From the NCBI GenBank assembly GCA_903879995.1, contig CAIRNW010000130.1:1-18673 (forward strand): a stretch of 18,673 bases of DNA, written 5' to 3'. Under the pieces are notes generated by a model, which saw only the letters and a list, made by a program, of their open reading frames with translations, searched no databases and was not told the origin of the DNA. Both the position numbers and the translations under genes were made by a program. This document shows positions 12,306-18,673 of this stretch, piece after piece. The DNA comes from an uncultured Bacteroidota bacterium (GTDB taxonomy: Bacteria > Bacteroidota > Bacteroidia > Chitinophagales > Chitinophagaceae). Each line of letters starts with the position of its first letter. Positions within the stretch are counted from its first letter, which is position 1.

Positions 12306-12752
12306 ATGAACTATAAATTGCCCCTCCAACTTCGTTGGGCTGATATTGACGCTAACTTTCATGTCCGTCATTCGGTTTATTATGATTGGGCTGCTCTTTG
12401 CCGTATTTCATTTATGCATGAAAAGGGCTTGACGGAGTCTGTCTATCACCAATTTAATATGGGCCCCATTCTTTTTAGAGAGGAATGTCGATTCAGAAGA
12501 GAAATCAGGATGGGCGATTCGATTGCAATTGATCTGGAGTTGGTCAATGCACGACGCGATTTTTCTCGTTGGACCATTCAACACTCCATTTGGAAATCTT
12601 CCTCCGTTGAAGCAGCTCGGTTAACGGTTGAGGGAGCCTTTATTGACCTTCATCTCCGAAAGCTTGCCATTCCTCCCTCTTTGGCTCAAGTTGTTTTTGA
12701 ACAAATGCCTCGATCCTCCAATTTTCAATGGAGCGATACAGCCAATCCCTAA
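12306..12752 (+). CDS. Hotdog-fold acyl-CoA thioesterase (4HBT family)
   Basis: A 148-residue single-domain hotdog protein of the 4-hydroxybenzoyl-CoA thioesterase group, expected to hydrolyse an acyl-CoA or acyl-ACP thioester in the cytoplasm. The signature LRWADIDANFHVRHSVYYDW (9-28) corresponds to the usual RW.D.DanGHVNN.vY. D15 is the likely catalytic acid, while the customary G-H-V-x-N has become F-H-V-R-H. The strand block GPILFREECRFRREIRMGD, equivalent to the family's second motif, supports the fold. The substrate cannot be read from sequence. Its stop overlaps the stop of the convergent exonuclease gene by 4 bases. Confidence 0.85.
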   Translation: MNYKLPLQLRWADIDANFHVRHSVYYDWAALCRISFMHEKGLTESVYHQFNMGPILFREECRFRREIRMGDSIAIDLELVNARRDFSRWTIQHSIWKSSSVEAARLTVEGAFIDLHLRKLAIPPSLAQVVFEQMPRSSNFQWSDTANP

Positions 12753-14113
12753 AGGGGTTTAATTTTTTCAGGAAAACTCTCTTTAAAAAGTCGAATTGTT
12801 TTTTGAATGGTGCTGTTGTTTCGGTAAGGGGTCAGGTAGTTTTTTACGTCTGTTGTATTTTGTACTGCTACGTTAGTTGGAATATAACCCATTCCATAAA
12901 AGCTTCCCTTTTCAATCAATACACAGGACGTCTCTTTATTGTTTCTTCCTTTGTCAATAATCATGTAGTTCTCAGCTGCAATTAATTCTTCGAGGGCACT
13001 ATCCACGCGTTGGTTATAAGAAGCTGCTTTTTCTTTTTTTACACAAGCCCCTTTGCAATTGGCAGCAAATTCTCCCGCACAAGCGCCGGAAGTCTGTTGC
13101 ATGAAACAGAGTCGAAGACATAAGTGGTGTGAACGTGCAATTTTTCGGATGATGGCTTGACCTTCAGCAAGCGTATACAAATGTAAAAGGGAGGACACAT
13201 TTTTTTTTATTTTATCCACGGCTATTCTCTTGTAGCCGTGTTGATCTTCAAAAACAAATATTCCAAATATGTCTTCTCTTTTTTTCTGTGCTGCATTGTA
13301 ACGGGGCCACCGGTGTTTGATTTCAGCGGACTCCAAGAGTGATGCCATCAAGGGAGTGGCGCATTCTTGGTAAGTGATCCGATATACGTTTCTGATAAAT
13401 TTTTGTTTTTGCCAAGTGGGCGCATCGTTGCTAAAATGACTATTAACCCGGTAACGTATATTGATGGCTTTTCCAACATACACTATTTTATCTTTTTTAT
13501 CATGGAAATAATAAACGCCAGGTTTGGTAGGTAGTCGATCAAAATCTGCTCGTTGAACATGAGGAGGTAGTATCCACTCTTTTGAATTTCGTTTTAAGCT
13601 TTTTGCAATTTGGTTGGATTTGTCCTCGTGTAATAATTTTTTAAAGAGTGCAACCGTGGCGGCTGTATCTCCACCGGCGCGGTGTCTATTTTCTAAAGAA
13701 ATGCCCAAGGATCGACACAGTTTACCCAAACTGTAAGATGGATAGCCCGGTAAGATTTGTCGGCTTAATCGAACGGTACAAAGTTTGGAGCAATTGAGCT
13801 CAAAACCGTCGGATTTAAGTTGCGCTTTTACAAATGAGTAATCGAATTGTACATTATGGGCTACAAAAATCTGGCCTTGCAATAAGCTGAAAACTCGTTC
13901 GGCTATAGCAGAAAATGGAGGTGCGTTCGCCACCATTTGGTTGGTGATTCCTGTCATTTGCTGGATAAACGGCGGGATGGGTTGTAATGGATTCACCAGC
14001 GACTCAAATTTCTCCACCACTTCAATTCCATCAAATACATGTATGGCAATTTCTGTGATTCCATTTGCGGCTGCATAGGAGCCTGTGGTTTCAATGTCTA
14101 CAATTGCGTACAT
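12749..14113 (-). CDS. DEDDh exonuclease / GIY-YIG nuclease fusion with UvrC-like cysteine motif
   Basis: A 454-residue fusion. Residues 1-165 are a DnaQ-type 3'-5' exonuclease: IVDIETTG (D6, E8), HNVQFDY (D91) and HRAGGD (H144, D149) give the complete DEDDh set. Residues about 195-275 are a GIY-YIG domain of the UvrC/Cho type: PGVYYF, VYVGKA, R220/R222, LLESAEIK (E261) and RYN (N273) are all present. Residues 330-360 hold LRLC...GAC...NCKGAC, with C336-x8-C345-x7-C353-x3-C357. The last two spacings equal those of the UvrC iron-sulfur motif. The C-terminal 90 residues have no domain I recognise; UvrB-binding and RNase H-like UvrC halves are absent. The likely role is a DNA repair nuclease akin to Cho, cutting at damage and trimming the end. 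The exo-GIY-YIG arrangement is known in other bacteria. Confidence 0.88.
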   Translation of the reverse strand: MYAIVDIETTGSYAAANGITEIAIHVFDGIEVVEKFESLVNPLQPIPPFIQQMTGITNQMVANAPPFSAIAERVFSLLQGQIFVAHNVQFDYSFVKAQLKSDGFELNCSKLCTVRLSRQILPGYPSYSLGKLCRSLGISLENRHRAGGDTAATVALFKKLLHEDKSNQIAKSLKRNSKEWILPPHVQRADFDRLPTKPGVYYFHDKKDKIVYVGKAINIRYRVNSHFSNDAPTWQKQKFIRNVYRITYQECATPLMASLLESAEIKHRWPRYNAAQKKREDIFGIFVFEDQHGYKRIAVDKIKKNVSSLLHLYTLAEGQAIIRKIARSHHLCLRLCFMQQTSGACAGEFAANCKGACVKKEKAASYNQRVDSALEELIAAENYMIIDKGRNNKETSCVLIEKGSFYGMGYIPTNVAVQNTTDVKNYLTPYRNNSTIQKTIRLFKESFPEKIKPL

Positions 14114-14165
14114 ACAATATGCTAAATTCGTTAAAAATTAAGTGGTGTTTGAGGCAAAATTGGAG

Positions 14166-15095
14166 ATGTTTCGCAACCGGTTGGAAAAGGTAAATCGTCA
14201 TTTGGGTAAACTAGCTCGCCGGAAAAACGTAGAGGCCTACCGAATTTACGATCATGATCTTCCAGAGTTCCCGTTTTGTATTGAACGGTATGGTAGCCAA
14301 ATTTGTCTGGCAGAGTATAAGCGAAGACATGGTATGGAGGAGTCTTTTTACCATTCTTGGTTACAAGGATCCCTGCAAATTATAAGTCAGGTTTTGCAGG
14401 TTCCCTCAGAAAATATCCATCGAAGAGTGAGGCAGCGGAAGTTGGGGAGACAGGGGCAGTACCAAAAGTTAGAAGGGCAGGAGGGACTTGGTTTTTTTAG
14501 CGTGGTAGAAAACGGTCTTTCATTTTGGATCAATTTGGAGGATTATTTGGATACCGGACTTTTCCTGGATCATCGAGATACAAGACAACTGGTGCGAGAA
14601 CAAAGCATGCAAAAGCGAGTACTAAACCTCTTTGCTTACACCGGTTCTTTTTCTGTGTATGCAGCAGCCGGTGGTGCAAGTTTAGTAACCACTGTTGATT
14701 TGTCTAATACTTATCTTGATTGGGCCAAACGAAATATGCAAAGCAATGGTTTTGAGGGCTCCGCTTTTCAATATGAGAGAGCCGACGTTAAGCAATGGTT
14801 AGAGCTTGTTCCCGCTGACGCATATGATATAATAGTAATGGATCCTCCTACTTTTAGTAACAGTAAAAAAATGACTGAGATACTCGATATTCAGCAAGAT
14901 CATGTCAATCTTATTCGCGCTTGCATGCGGGTATTATCTTCCACAGGTGTGTTATACTTTAGCACCAATTATACGGGGTTTAAGTTGAATAGGGAGGCGC
15001 TGAGTGGATTTGTAATGAAGGATATTACGCGTGCAACCACCCCATTTGATTTTGAAGGAAGACTCAAGCGAGTTTGCTATACAATTCAGCAATAA
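14166..15095 (+). CDS. RlmK-like class I SAM-dependent rRNA methyltransferase
   Basis: A 309-residue methyltransferase corresponding to the C-terminal half of E. coli RlmKL, the part that makes m7G2069 in 23S rRNA. Family landmarks are NRLEKVNRHLGKLARR (4-19), AYRIYDHDLPEF (24-35), RQ.KLGRQGQYQKL (89-102), YLDTGLFLDHR (127-137), SAM motif I NLFAYTGSFSVYAA (154-167), TVDLSNTYLDWAKRN (176-190) and the motif IV DPPTFSNSKKM (226-236). The THUMP and RlmL (m2G2445) half is absent, so it is a stand-alone RlmK-type enzyme. GTG codons at 14142 and 14145 are in frame and would add eight or seven residues. I prefer the ATG at 14166, which begins where the family homology begins and has GAGG 11 bases upstream. 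A possible -7 element TAAATTCG lies at 14123-14130. Confidence 0.88.
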   Translation: MFRNRLEKVNRHLGKLARRKNVEAYRIYDHDLPEFPFCIERYGSQICLAEYKRRHGMEESFYHSWLQGSLQIISQVLQVPSENIHRRVRQRKLGRQGQYQKLEGQEGLGFFSVVENGLSFWINLEDYLDTGLFLDHRDTRQLVREQSMQKRVLNLFAYTGSFSVYAAAGGASLVTTVDLSNTYLDWAKRNMQSNGFEGSAFQYERADVKQWLELVPADAYDIIVMDPPTFSNSKKMTEILDIQQDHVNLIRACMRVLSSTGVLYFSTNYTGFKLNREALSGFVMKDITRATTPFDFEGRLKRVCYTIQQ

Positions 15096-16144: not shown

Positions 16145-16714
16145 ATGGCAAATACAGCAGACATCAGCCGCGGGCTTATCATCAAGTTAGATGGCAGTCT
16201 TTATTCCGTAGTGGAATTTGGAGAGAATAAAACGGCACGTGCAGCGGCCAAAGTTTGGGCAAAACTCAAGGGGATCGATAACAATCGTACCATTGAAAAA
16301 ACTTGGAACTCAGGGGATACTATATTTCCGGTTCGAGTAGAGCGCAAAGCTTACCAATACTTATACAAGGACGACACGGGTTATAATTTCATGGATAATG
16401 AAACATTTGAGCAGGTTGCTGTACAGGAAGCCTTGGTAGACGCACCCCAGTTTTTAAAAGAGGGGCAGGAGGTAAGCGTTCTCTTCAACACGGAAACAGA
16501 GGCTCCTATGTCTGTCGAGTTGCCTGATAAGATTGTCTTATTAGTAACTTATACTGAGCCAGGTTTAAAAGGAGATACCGCCACACGAACCTTGAAGCCT
16601 GCTACCGTTGAAACAGGCGCAAAAGTCAACGTTCCTCTTTTTGTCAACGAGGGCGAACTGATCCGGGTCAATACAAAAACCGGCGACTATGTAGAGCGCG
16701 TAAAAGAAGCATAA
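16145..16714 (+). CDS. efp: Elongation factor P with arginine at the modification site
   Basis: EF-P (189 residues) enters the ribosomal E site and rescues ribosomes stalled at polyproline. Three beta-barrel domains are visible: the KOW-like domain 1 (ADISRGLIIKLDGSLYSVVEF), an OB domain with YLYKDDTGYNFMDNETFEQ, and a C-terminal OB domain with YTEPGLKGDTATRTLKPATVETGA and VNEGELIRVNTKTGDYVERV. The tip loop of domain 1 is unusual: EFGENKTARAAAKVWAKLKG (24-43) replaces the common EF.HVKPGKG.AFVR.KLK. The modified lysine is replaced by R32 (codon 16238-16240). The start is the ATG at 16145; a TTG at 16115 lies within the promoter. A terminator follows, then accB-accC. Confidence 0.96.
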   Translation: MANTADISRGLIIKLDGSLYSVVEFGENKTARAAAKVWAKLKGIDNNRTIEKTWNSGDTIFPVRVERKAYQYLYKDDTGYNFMDNETFEQVAVQEALVDAPQFLKEGQEVSVLFNTETEAPMSVELPDKIVLLVTYTEPGLKGDTATRTLKPATVETGAKVNVPLFVNEGELIRVNTKTGDYVERVKEA

Positions 16715-16730
16715 ATTAATTTTACTTTAT

Positions 16731-16763
16731 AGCCCGATTTTTAATGAAATCGGGCTTTTTTTT
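16731..16763 (+). terminator. Intrinsic terminator after efp
   Basis: A perfect 10-bp stem, AGCCCGATTT (16731-16740) with AAATCGGGCT (16747-16756), closes a 6-base loop and continues into eight T residues. It separates efp from accB even though the three genes form a commonly conserved cluster, so accBC needs its own promoter or read-through. Confidence 0.93.
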
Positions 16764-16890: not shown

Positions 16891-17376
16891 ATGGATTTTA
16901 AACAGATTCAGGAGTTGATCAAGATGGTCAACAAATCCAATATTGGAGAAGTTACCATTGAGCAAAAGGACTTTAAAGTTACCGTCAAGCAAAAAGAGGA
17001 TAAGATAACCCAGGTAGTAAGCGCAGTTGCTCCCATGCAATCGGCGCCCGTATCAGCTCCTCCAGCTCCTGTAGCCGCTGCACCCGCCTCTGCACCAGCA
17101 GCTGATAAACCAAAGCCACCGGCATCTACAGATAATTTGATAACTATTAAAAGTCCCATGATCGGAACTTTTTATAGGAAGTCCTCTCCGGATAAACCCA
17201 ATCTAGTTGATATAGGGACAGAAATTTCACCCGGTAGTGTGGTGTGCATTATTGAGGCTATGAAGCTCTTTAACGAAATCGAAAGTGAGATAAAGGGTCG
17301 TGTTGTAAAAGTACTGGTTGATGATGCATCACCTGTTGAGTACGATCAGCCTCTATTCTTGGTTGAACCTGCCTGA
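16891..17376 (+). CDS. accB: Acetyl-CoA carboxylase biotin carboxyl carrier protein
   Basis: BCCP (161 residues) carries the biotin that shuttles CO2 between AccC and the AccAD carboxyltransferase. The N-terminal helix and strand DFKQIQELIKMVNKSNIGEVTI (2-23) is typical. A flexible Ala/Pro linker (about 45-79) leads to the biotinyl domain from ITIKSPMIGTFYR (84-96). The attachment site is K125 in EAMKLFNE, and the thumb region is present. The ATG at 16891 starts at the family's N-terminus; the in-frame ATG at 16792 would add 33 residues without homology from the leader. accC follows after 23 bases. Confidence 0.96.
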   Translation: MDFKQIQELIKMVNKSNIGEVTIEQKDFKVTVKQKEDKITQVVSAVAPMQSAPVSAPPAPVAAAPASAPAADKPKPPASTDNLITIKSPMIGTFYRKSSPDKPNLVDIGTEISPGSVVCIIEAMKLFNEIESEIKGRVVKVLVDDASPVEYDQPLFLVEPA

Positions 17377-17399: not shown

Positions 17400-18673
17400 A
17401 TGTTTAAGAAAATCCTCATTGCCAACAGAGGCGAGATTGCCTTGCGTGTGATACGGACGGCGCGGGAGATGGGTATCAAAACAGTAGCCGTTTATTCTAC
17501 TGCGGATCGTGATAGTTTACATGTAAAATTTGCTGATGAGGCTGTTTGCATAGGAAAGCCACAGAGCAGTGATTCCTATCTGAATATTGCCAATATCATG
17601 TCTGCAGTTGAAATTACCAATGCAGATGCTGTTCATCCTGGATATGGATTTTTAGCAGAAAATTCTCGATTTGCAAGAATCTGTAATGAGCATGGTATTA
17701 AGTTTATTGGCCCCACACCCGAGATGATTAATGCGATGGGGGACAAGATTACTGCTAAGGAAACCATGATCAAAGCTGGTGTTCCAGTAGTGCCAGGGGG
17801 AGAGGGGTTGTTGCAAAGTGTAGATGAAGCCAAAGGCCTGGCGCGTGAAATGGGTTATCCCATTATTCTAAAAGCTACGGCGGGTGGTGGAGGAAAAGGA
17901 ATGCGAATTGTTTGGGAAGAATCTGAGTTGGAAAAAGCATACGATACGGCTAAAGCAGAGGCGCTTGCTTCATTTAAGAATGACGGGATTTACATGGAAA
18001 AGTTTGTGGAAGAACCTCGTCATATAGAAATTCAAGTAGCCGGTGATCAGTACGGTAATGTTTGTCATTTAAGTGAACGTGATTGCTCCATACAGCGTCG
18101 CCATCAGAAGTTAGTAGAGGAATCTCCCTCTCCATTTATGACAGACGAGCTACGTTATAAGATGGGGGAGGCTGCGAAAAAAGCAGCGGCTGCTATTAAT
18201 TATGAAAGTGTGGGTACCATTGAGTTTTTAGTGGACAAGCACCGTAATTTTTATTTCATGGAGATGAACACCCGTATACAGGTGGAGCATTGTGTTACGG
18301 AGGAAGTGATTAATTACGATTTAATCAAAGAGCAAATTTTGATTGCGGCAGGACACCGTATATCGGGGAAAGACTATTTTCCTCAAATGCATTCAATCGA
18401 GTGTCGAATCAATGCGGAGGATCCTTATAATGATTTTAGACCCTCTCCTGGAAAAATTACAGTTTGTCATCAGCCCGGTGGACACGGCGTTCGTGTGGAT
18501 AGTCATGTTTACGCTGGGTATGTTATACCACCTTATTACGATTCCATGATTGGAAAATTAATTACGGTGGCACAAACTCGACAAGAAGCCATTCAAACCA
18601 TGTATCGTGCTTTGAGTGAATATGTAATTGAAGGGGTTAAAACAACTATCCCGTTTCATTTACAATTAATGCA
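17400..18673 (+). CDS. accC: Acetyl-CoA carboxylase biotin carboxylase (3' end missing)
   Basis: Biotin carboxylase uses ATP and bicarbonate to carboxylate the biotin on AccB. The window holds 424 codons from the ATG at 17400; the family is about 450 residues, so roughly the last 25 are outside. The reading frame is open to the window edge. The opening [20 protein letters not shown] is diagnostic. The ATP-grasp glycine loop [10 protein letters not shown] lies at 158-167, HQK with K237 near the bicarbonate site, and E288, N290 and R292 in [10 protein letters not shown] occupy the same numbers as in the E. coli enzyme. A cysteine follows (EHCVTE) where E. coli has proline. It is co-transcribed with accB. 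Confidence 0.97.

Follow-up and report, generated by a model that had tools for sequence, protein, structure and literature searches.

The window analysed here, a stretch of 18,673 nucleotides from an uncultured bacterium of the Chitinophagaceae (phylum Bacteroidota), carries an efp gene for an elongation factor P (EF-P) with an arginine, R32, at the tip of domain I. A lysine or arginine lengthened by modification is generally considered necessary at this position for an EF-P to be fully active. The arginine and seven neighbouring replacements are common to all Chitinophagaceae EF-Ps that we read, and searches for the known tip-modifying enzymes EarP, EpmA and YmfI gave no accepted match in the Bacteroidota genomes covered. 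We propose that the window encodes an EarP-independent arginine-type EF-P, which probably works unmodified.

An EF-P with an arginine at the tip

The features concerned are the following.

16145..16714, + strand: efp, elongation factor P, 189 amino acids, single copy (ATG at 16145, stop codon ending at 16714)
16220..16261, + strand: codons for residues 26-39 (GENKTARAAAKVWA), which form the rebuilt segment beta3-loop-beta4, from the sequence and the family rows
16229..16249, + strand: codons of the seven-residue tip loop K29-A35 (KTARAAA), from the AlphaFold model, between predicted strands 18-28 and 36-43
16238..16240, + strand: codon CGT of the tip arginine R32, from the printed codons and the alignment

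Judged by its domain content, the window protein is a complete EF-P. All three Pfam domains exceeded their cut-offs (PF08207, 49.1 bits; PF01132, 66.2 bits; PF09285, 97.1 bits), as did the curated NCBIfam model TIGR00038 efp (211.6 bits, cut-off 185.8); a role in polyproline rescue may be ascribed to it as a member of this family. A single EF-P match was obtained in the genome, which comprises 410 contigs (2.1 Mb) and is 96.7% complete. Alignment with solved EF-Ps, gap-free in the loop, placed R32 opposite their tip lysine or arginine, which confirmed the register given in an earlier note made from the letters of the window. Neither the lysine in PGKG of EpmA-type EF-Ps nor the tip lysine of YmfI-type EF-Ps is present.

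An AlphaFold model built from 51 sequences (mean pLDDT 83.4, pTM 0.65; pLDDT 79 in block 21-30 and 75 in block 31-40) predicts two strands, 18-28 and 36-43, flanking a seven-residue loop, 29-35, with R32 at its centre. As modelled, the tip loop is of canonical length, without the extension of EfpL. The first-ranked Foldseek match was the EF-P of Thermus, and the highest Z scores were those of the EF-Ps of C. glutamicum (20.3) and Thermus (19.3).

A signature fixed in Chitinophagaceae

The family was represented by 226 rows, the window's own included, which correspond to 205 distinct proteins and come from 142 sampled genomes and from 80 named records that overlap with these in part. EFP_N matched in 140 of the 147 genomes of the window's family, once in each, and the tip was arginine in 146/146 loci read (the 140 family genomes and two further ones, four genomes being read twice). 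NKTAR was found in all 80 named-genome stretches, the best 80 of 577 encoding stretches; these are the best matches to the window protein and hence biased towards it, a bias that the family scan does not share. About 19 of the named records are not labelled as metagenome-assembled genomes (for example Niastella, Terrimonas, Chitinophaga and Segetibacter), and the two whose lineages were checked both belong to Chitinophagaceae. Since 13 proteins are common to the family scan and the named set, we take the scanned family to be Chitinophagaceae.

Eight positions within residues 26-39 differ jointly (G26-N28-T30-A31-R32-K36-W38-A39). The corresponding signature, GNTARKWA at positions 26, 28, 30, 31, 32, 36, 38 and 39, was present in 226/226 family rows, all with A31 before R32 and none with a proline at -2. 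The same positions read Q/L/M-V-P-G-K-F-R-T/C/A in 37 lysine-type rows from the order and class. The change of P-G-K-G to T-A-R-A that the earlier note had described is exact, but too narrow.

None of 117 other rows read from the phylum sample had the signature. These rows, the 37 lysine-type ones and 80 further lysine, asparagine or odd types, had 72 K, 43 N, 1 R and 1 Q at the tip; they are not a random sample, being made up of the 30 best-scoring loci, order mates and hand-picked genomes, many with a low EFP_N score. HVKPGKG was kept in all 24 order mates read, and no intermediate loop was seen in these 24 of the 117 order-mate genomes with an EF-P match. The arginine tip and its signature are thus a fixed trait of Chitinophagaceae as sampled. 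The lineage-wide trait that the earlier note had surmised is thereby confirmed and located. Because a second assembly (L062) carries an EF-P 99% identical to the window protein and all family rows have the arginine, the R32 tip is neither an assembly error nor a chance event.

Other tips were met in the same samples. A separate second arginine tip, HVQTGRGGAY, occurs in the phylum sample (L173 and L202; genome G196, which also has an asparagine-tip EF-P). In f3, a family of the same class, the EF-P tip is an asparagine (HRTPGNLRAFYQ), and five of seven genomes inspected carry an additional EF-P, with HRTPGKGGAF (L196; L197; L203 with L223; L194 with L218; L190 with L219), both copies lying within one stretch of about 3 kb in L196 and L197. 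In the class family f8, lysine-tip and asparagine-tip EF-Ps are found in different genera (L208 and L211 versus L006 and L022), and these mixed tips hint at replacement of efp by transfer. An odd extra EF-P, L226 of genome G228, has the loop RHAGSGQMQGF, with an additional residue ahead of the tip; the other EF-P of this genome (L185) is of the asparagine type. Family genomes G465, G524 and G545, and also G372 in the order scan, had no EF-P match despite an estimated completeness of 97-100%.

Search for known tip-modifying enzymes

The earlier note had proposed a search for earP, epmA, ymfI and the rml genes; we found no match for the first, none over cut-off for the next two, though a close one for ymfI, and we did find rmlD. 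EarP (PF10093) had no match in any of 76 Chitinophagaceae genomes, the window's own included, in a run where the positive control, an Ilyobacter plasmid record with earP adjoining efp, matched at 3.3e-99. Two other runs, in which no control matched, gave no EarP match in 296 genomes of the phylum and none in the window's own genome. With the EpmA model (TIGR00462), no match over cut-off was obtained in 139 genomes of the order, again including the window's own, while 2 of 14 controls exceeded it; the best matches listed lay mostly in frames of about 500 amino acids, which we read as LysRS. The YmfI model (NF047420) exceeded its cut-off in none of the 139 order genomes and in 1 of 14 controls. 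This negative is weaker than those for EpmA and EarP, because the best match (236.2 bits) fell less than 2 bits below the cut-off of 238. As no known tip-modifying enzyme was found, R32 is most likely bare.

EarP-type EF-Ps (those of Pseudomonas, Neisseria and Shewanella and, in our set, Ilyobacter and Aeromonas) share with the window protein an arginine tip and the lack of a proline at -2; arginine tips are reported for 14.75% of 1166 EF-Ps, rarely with P at -2 (PMC6544042). The suggestion of the earlier note that R32 is an EarP substrate was nevertheless not supported and we rejected it, as PF10093 had no match and the residue at -1 is alanine where EarP needs glycine: G31A is reported to lower the rate of EarP rhamnosylation of P. 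putida EF-P to less than 1% (PMC6544042). Rhamnosylation by an EarP so divergent as to be invisible to PF10093 is very unlikely. It would agree with the kind of tip just described and with the presence of rmlD in the window's genome (315.5 bits, cut-off 224.05), the one gene of the pathway that was searched; dTDP-rhamnose synthesis may thus be present. Yet the negatives extend over the phylum and family genomes, with the control matched in the latter, and the loop TARAAA is unlike the SGRNSA of two EarP-type EF-Ps, that of Ilyobacter, assigned by its adjacent earP, and that of Aeromonas, assigned by its loop alone.

Two further candidates were rejected. A second, lysine-type efp, for which the earlier note had allowed, was not found: there is one EF-P match in the window's genome, and the 140 family genomes with a match likewise have one apiece. 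A modifier gene beside efp was looked for in 131 family loci, with 1.5-3 kb per side where contigs allow, and only accB and accC recur widely.

A probably bare arginine or a possible undescribed modification

The tip is probably bare or carries a so far undescribed modification. Of the options listed in the earlier note we favour, from sequence comparison, the one in which the protein would work unmodified. It would be the ordinary, sole EF-P of a Chitinophagaceae genome, acting at the ribosome like other EF-Ps, that is, bound beside a stalled P-site Pro-tRNA with the tip of domain I steadying the CCA end. The arginine tip GxNKTARAAAKVWA would have replaced the lysine tip HVKPGKGxAFVRT at the base of the family, the surrounding strand being rebuilt too. 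R32 would be bare, and the rebuilt loop and strand (T30, A31, K36, W38, A39) would give the fit that modification gives elsewhere. We infer the unmodified state of R32, its contacts and the compensation by the other loop changes.

The main rival, which we hold to be unlikely, is that R32 is modified by an undescribed enzyme encoded away from efp. Another arginine modification had also been listed in the earlier note, which rightly allowed for a different modifier, if there is one; this option stays as a rival, although accB and accC are the only genes recurring beside efp in most loci and no widely recurring candidate enzyme is seen there. We rank it first in view of the poor performance, on ribosomes of E. 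coli, of bare arginine EF-Ps taken from organisms with EarP (PMC6544042, PMC4739656). No known enzyme fits, and identity of eight positions in all family rows is also what would be expected of an enzyme recognition site. However, EfpL, the K32R variant of B. subtilis EF-P and probably the Thermus protein suggest that a bare arginine can work (PMC11611912, PMC5885033, PMC2821294); K32R is reported to relieve the swarming defect of a ymfI mutant (PMC5885033).

Several points weigh against a bare but working R32. The K34R variant of E. coli EF-P is reported to retain only 20% activity, and the unmodified arginine EF-Ps of P. putida and S. oneidensis to be inactive or inhibitory in E. coli (PMC6544042). 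The same is reported of unmodified N. meningitidis EF-P (PMC4739656), which works partly on its own ribosome (PMC4739656). The absence of known enzymes does not prove absence of modification, the YmfI search was weak with its near-threshold match, and rmlD is present. Furthermore, 7 of the 147 family genomes, 3 of them at least 97% complete, have no EF-P match, and the PP content of family proteins relative to expectation is slightly lower than that of order mates (see below).

It is a tentative possibility that Chitinophagaceae have a further tip solution. One form of it, unlikely, would be a novel modification of the arginine whose enzyme does not resemble EarP; the other, more unlikely still, would be a bare arginine fully active only with matching changes in the ribosomes of the family. 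If true, either one would be a natural switch from a lysine-type to an arginine-type EF-P inside one bacterial order. Lysine was exchanged for arginine, together with the seven neighbouring changes, in a family with cultured members, and the order mates read kept the lysine. Such a natural pair, with EarP and EpmA found on neither side, could serve to probe what a bare tip arginine needs, or to seek a new modifier.

Comparison with other arginine-type EF-Ps

The EF-P of Thermus thermophilus (R32; PDB 1UEB, 4V6A) resembles the window protein in its arginine tip, equal loop length and lack of a proline at -2. Its strand beta4 is also similar (AKVVAKFK versus AKVWAKLK), whereas its arginine is flanked by glycines (L-G-R-G-G versus T-A-R-A-A); identity amounts to 36.7% in domain I and 45.5% in domains II/III. 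R32 of Thermus EF-P is reported to contact C75 of the initiator tRNA and is discussed as an adaptation to absent modification; arginine is found in 24.1% of EF-Ps from organisms without yjeA/yjeK (PMC2821294). A Thermus composti control genome had an EF-P and no EarP match, in a run without a matching control. The EF-Ps of Borrelia and Deinococcus are like the window's in their reported arginine tip, a likeness by description only; Thermus, Deinococcus and Borrelia EF-Ps are all listed with Arg, and Borrelia as lacking EarP (PMC4739656).

E. coli EfpL (YeiP) has the tip S-P-T-A-R-G-A-A-T and thus shares T-A-R-x-A-A with the window protein. Unlike the latter, which is a single EF-P with a predicted seven-residue loop and K29 at -3, EfpL is a paralog beside an EF-P, with a loop two residues longer and a proline at -3 (PMC11611912). 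We rejected membership in the EfpL family, as NF003392 gave 109.1 bits against a cut-off of 216 and there is neither a loop extension nor a paralog. Since identity in domain I is only 14.5%, we take the likeness to be one of design, not of kinship. R33 of E. coli EfpL was reported unmodified by mass spectrometry, and R33K to abolish function (PMC11611912).

The C. glutamicum EF-P (PDB 6S8Z), an unmodified lysine EF-P and the best structural match by Z score, differs from the window's in keeping a lysine-type loop, HVKPGKGPAFVR. Unmodified EF-Ps with a stiffened loop are those of Actinobacteria. A stiffened loop is reported to be able to work without modification (PMC11611912).

No relevant literature on the EF-P of Chitinophagaceae was found; the search did not cover supplementary sequence lists, where such sequences may be present. 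Words beginning with Bacteroid do not occur in the main texts of PMC6544042, PMC11611912, PMC2821294, PMC4739656 and PMC5885033. An arginine tip without EarP is already known elsewhere; the literature searched did not describe a switch of a whole family to this loop.

Origin of domain I

Quick trees were made from 91 rows, 21 of them of the family; the arginine-type EF-Ps of other phyla were those of Thermus, Ilyobacter and Aeromonas and EfpL, to which six other references were added. In the tree of domains II/III, the family rows form one branch (n = 21, SH-aLRT 94) inside 60 Bacteroidia-type rows (SH-aLRT 91). The family stem is five-fold longer in domain I (0.889 changes per site) than in domains II/III, where its length is ordinary (0.173), whereas the summed branch lengths within the family are 1.79 and 3.25, respectively. 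Identity between family and order mates is 36.4% in domain I and 54.0% in domains II/III, the reverse of the pattern between lysine-type rows of the order and of the class (61.2% and 53.0%). This long stem, the low change within the family and the reversed identities indicate that, at the base of the family, domain I either underwent a burst of change or was exchanged, and that it has been conserved since; its tree does not distinguish between the two.

Whatever the state of R32, a swap of domain I from a foreign arginine-type EF-P, through recombination after transfer, is conceivable but doubtful. The stem and the identities speak for it, and domain I of the window protein has 36.7% identity to Thermus, no less than to order mates (36.4% on average), with a Thermus-like beta4 (AKVxAKxK). 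No donor was found, however, among the few arginine-type EF-Ps of other phyla, and in the domain I tree, with 62 columns and long branches, neither placement with Bacteroidia (AU p 0.265) nor placement with Thermus (AU p 0.32) was rejected. Furthermore, at least 15 base changes separate residues 26-39 from one order-mate-like sequence, a distance that can be covered stepwise.

Polyproline motifs

That this EF-P no longer serves in polyproline translation and has taken on a different function is extremely unlikely. Its loop is unlike that of any of the 117 other rows read, but all three domains are conserved and an EF-P match is kept, one per genome, in the 140 family genomes that gave any. Proline motifs were compared, with crude ORF calls, between 289 ORFs of the family (20 stretches of 20 kb, 20 genomes) and 318 ORFs of order mates (20 stretches, 18 genomes). 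PP occurred 15.0 times per 10,000 amino acids in the family and 13.6 times in order mates, and PPP 1.65 and 0.87 times, the latter from counts of only 19 and 10. A purge of polyprolines was thus not clearly seen, PPP not being reduced and PP observed/expected from proline content being 0.83 in the family versus 0.87. The PPP motif of ValS was present in 27/27 genes over cut-off (17 from family genomes); no ValS match in the genome of the window exceeded the cut-off. EF-P activity therefore still seems to be needed in the family, as far as these sequences indicate.

Gene neighbourhood

Downstream of efp, the window contains the following features.

16731..16756, + strand: terminator-like hairpin followed by a T tail, in the gap separating efp from accB (one such hairpin, against 1.1 expected from shuffles)
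16891..17376, + strand: accB, biotin carboxyl carrier protein (TIGR00531, 161.5 bits, cut-off 115.2; the start codon is our reading)
17400..18671, + strand: accC-like gene, cut by the window end, which from its sequence probably encodes a biotin carboxylase

accB lies downstream of efp on the same strand in 120 of the 131 family loci, and accC is present in 119 (presence only was counted). The genes upstream vary, the commonest cluster occurring in 42 loci, on the opposite strand, and mdh in 28. No modifier-like gene recurs in most loci within these flanks.

At 14142-15095 on the + strand of the window lies a stand-alone RlmK-like 23S rRNA methyltransferase gene, whose product aligns with the C-terminal half of the RlmKL profile alone (positions 395-700) and scores 372.4 bits, short of the cut-off of 466. 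It had no match in 131 other family loci, of which 1.5-3 kb per side of efp were covered. The RlmK target G2069, as taken from the model name, is near C2064/C2065, which R32 of Thermus EF-P is reported to touch (PMC2821294). Finally, the gene at 12749-14113 on the - strand encodes a DnaQ-type exonuclease fused to a UvrC/Cho-like endonuclease domain; the long models scored under their cut-offs and TIGR00573 over its own.
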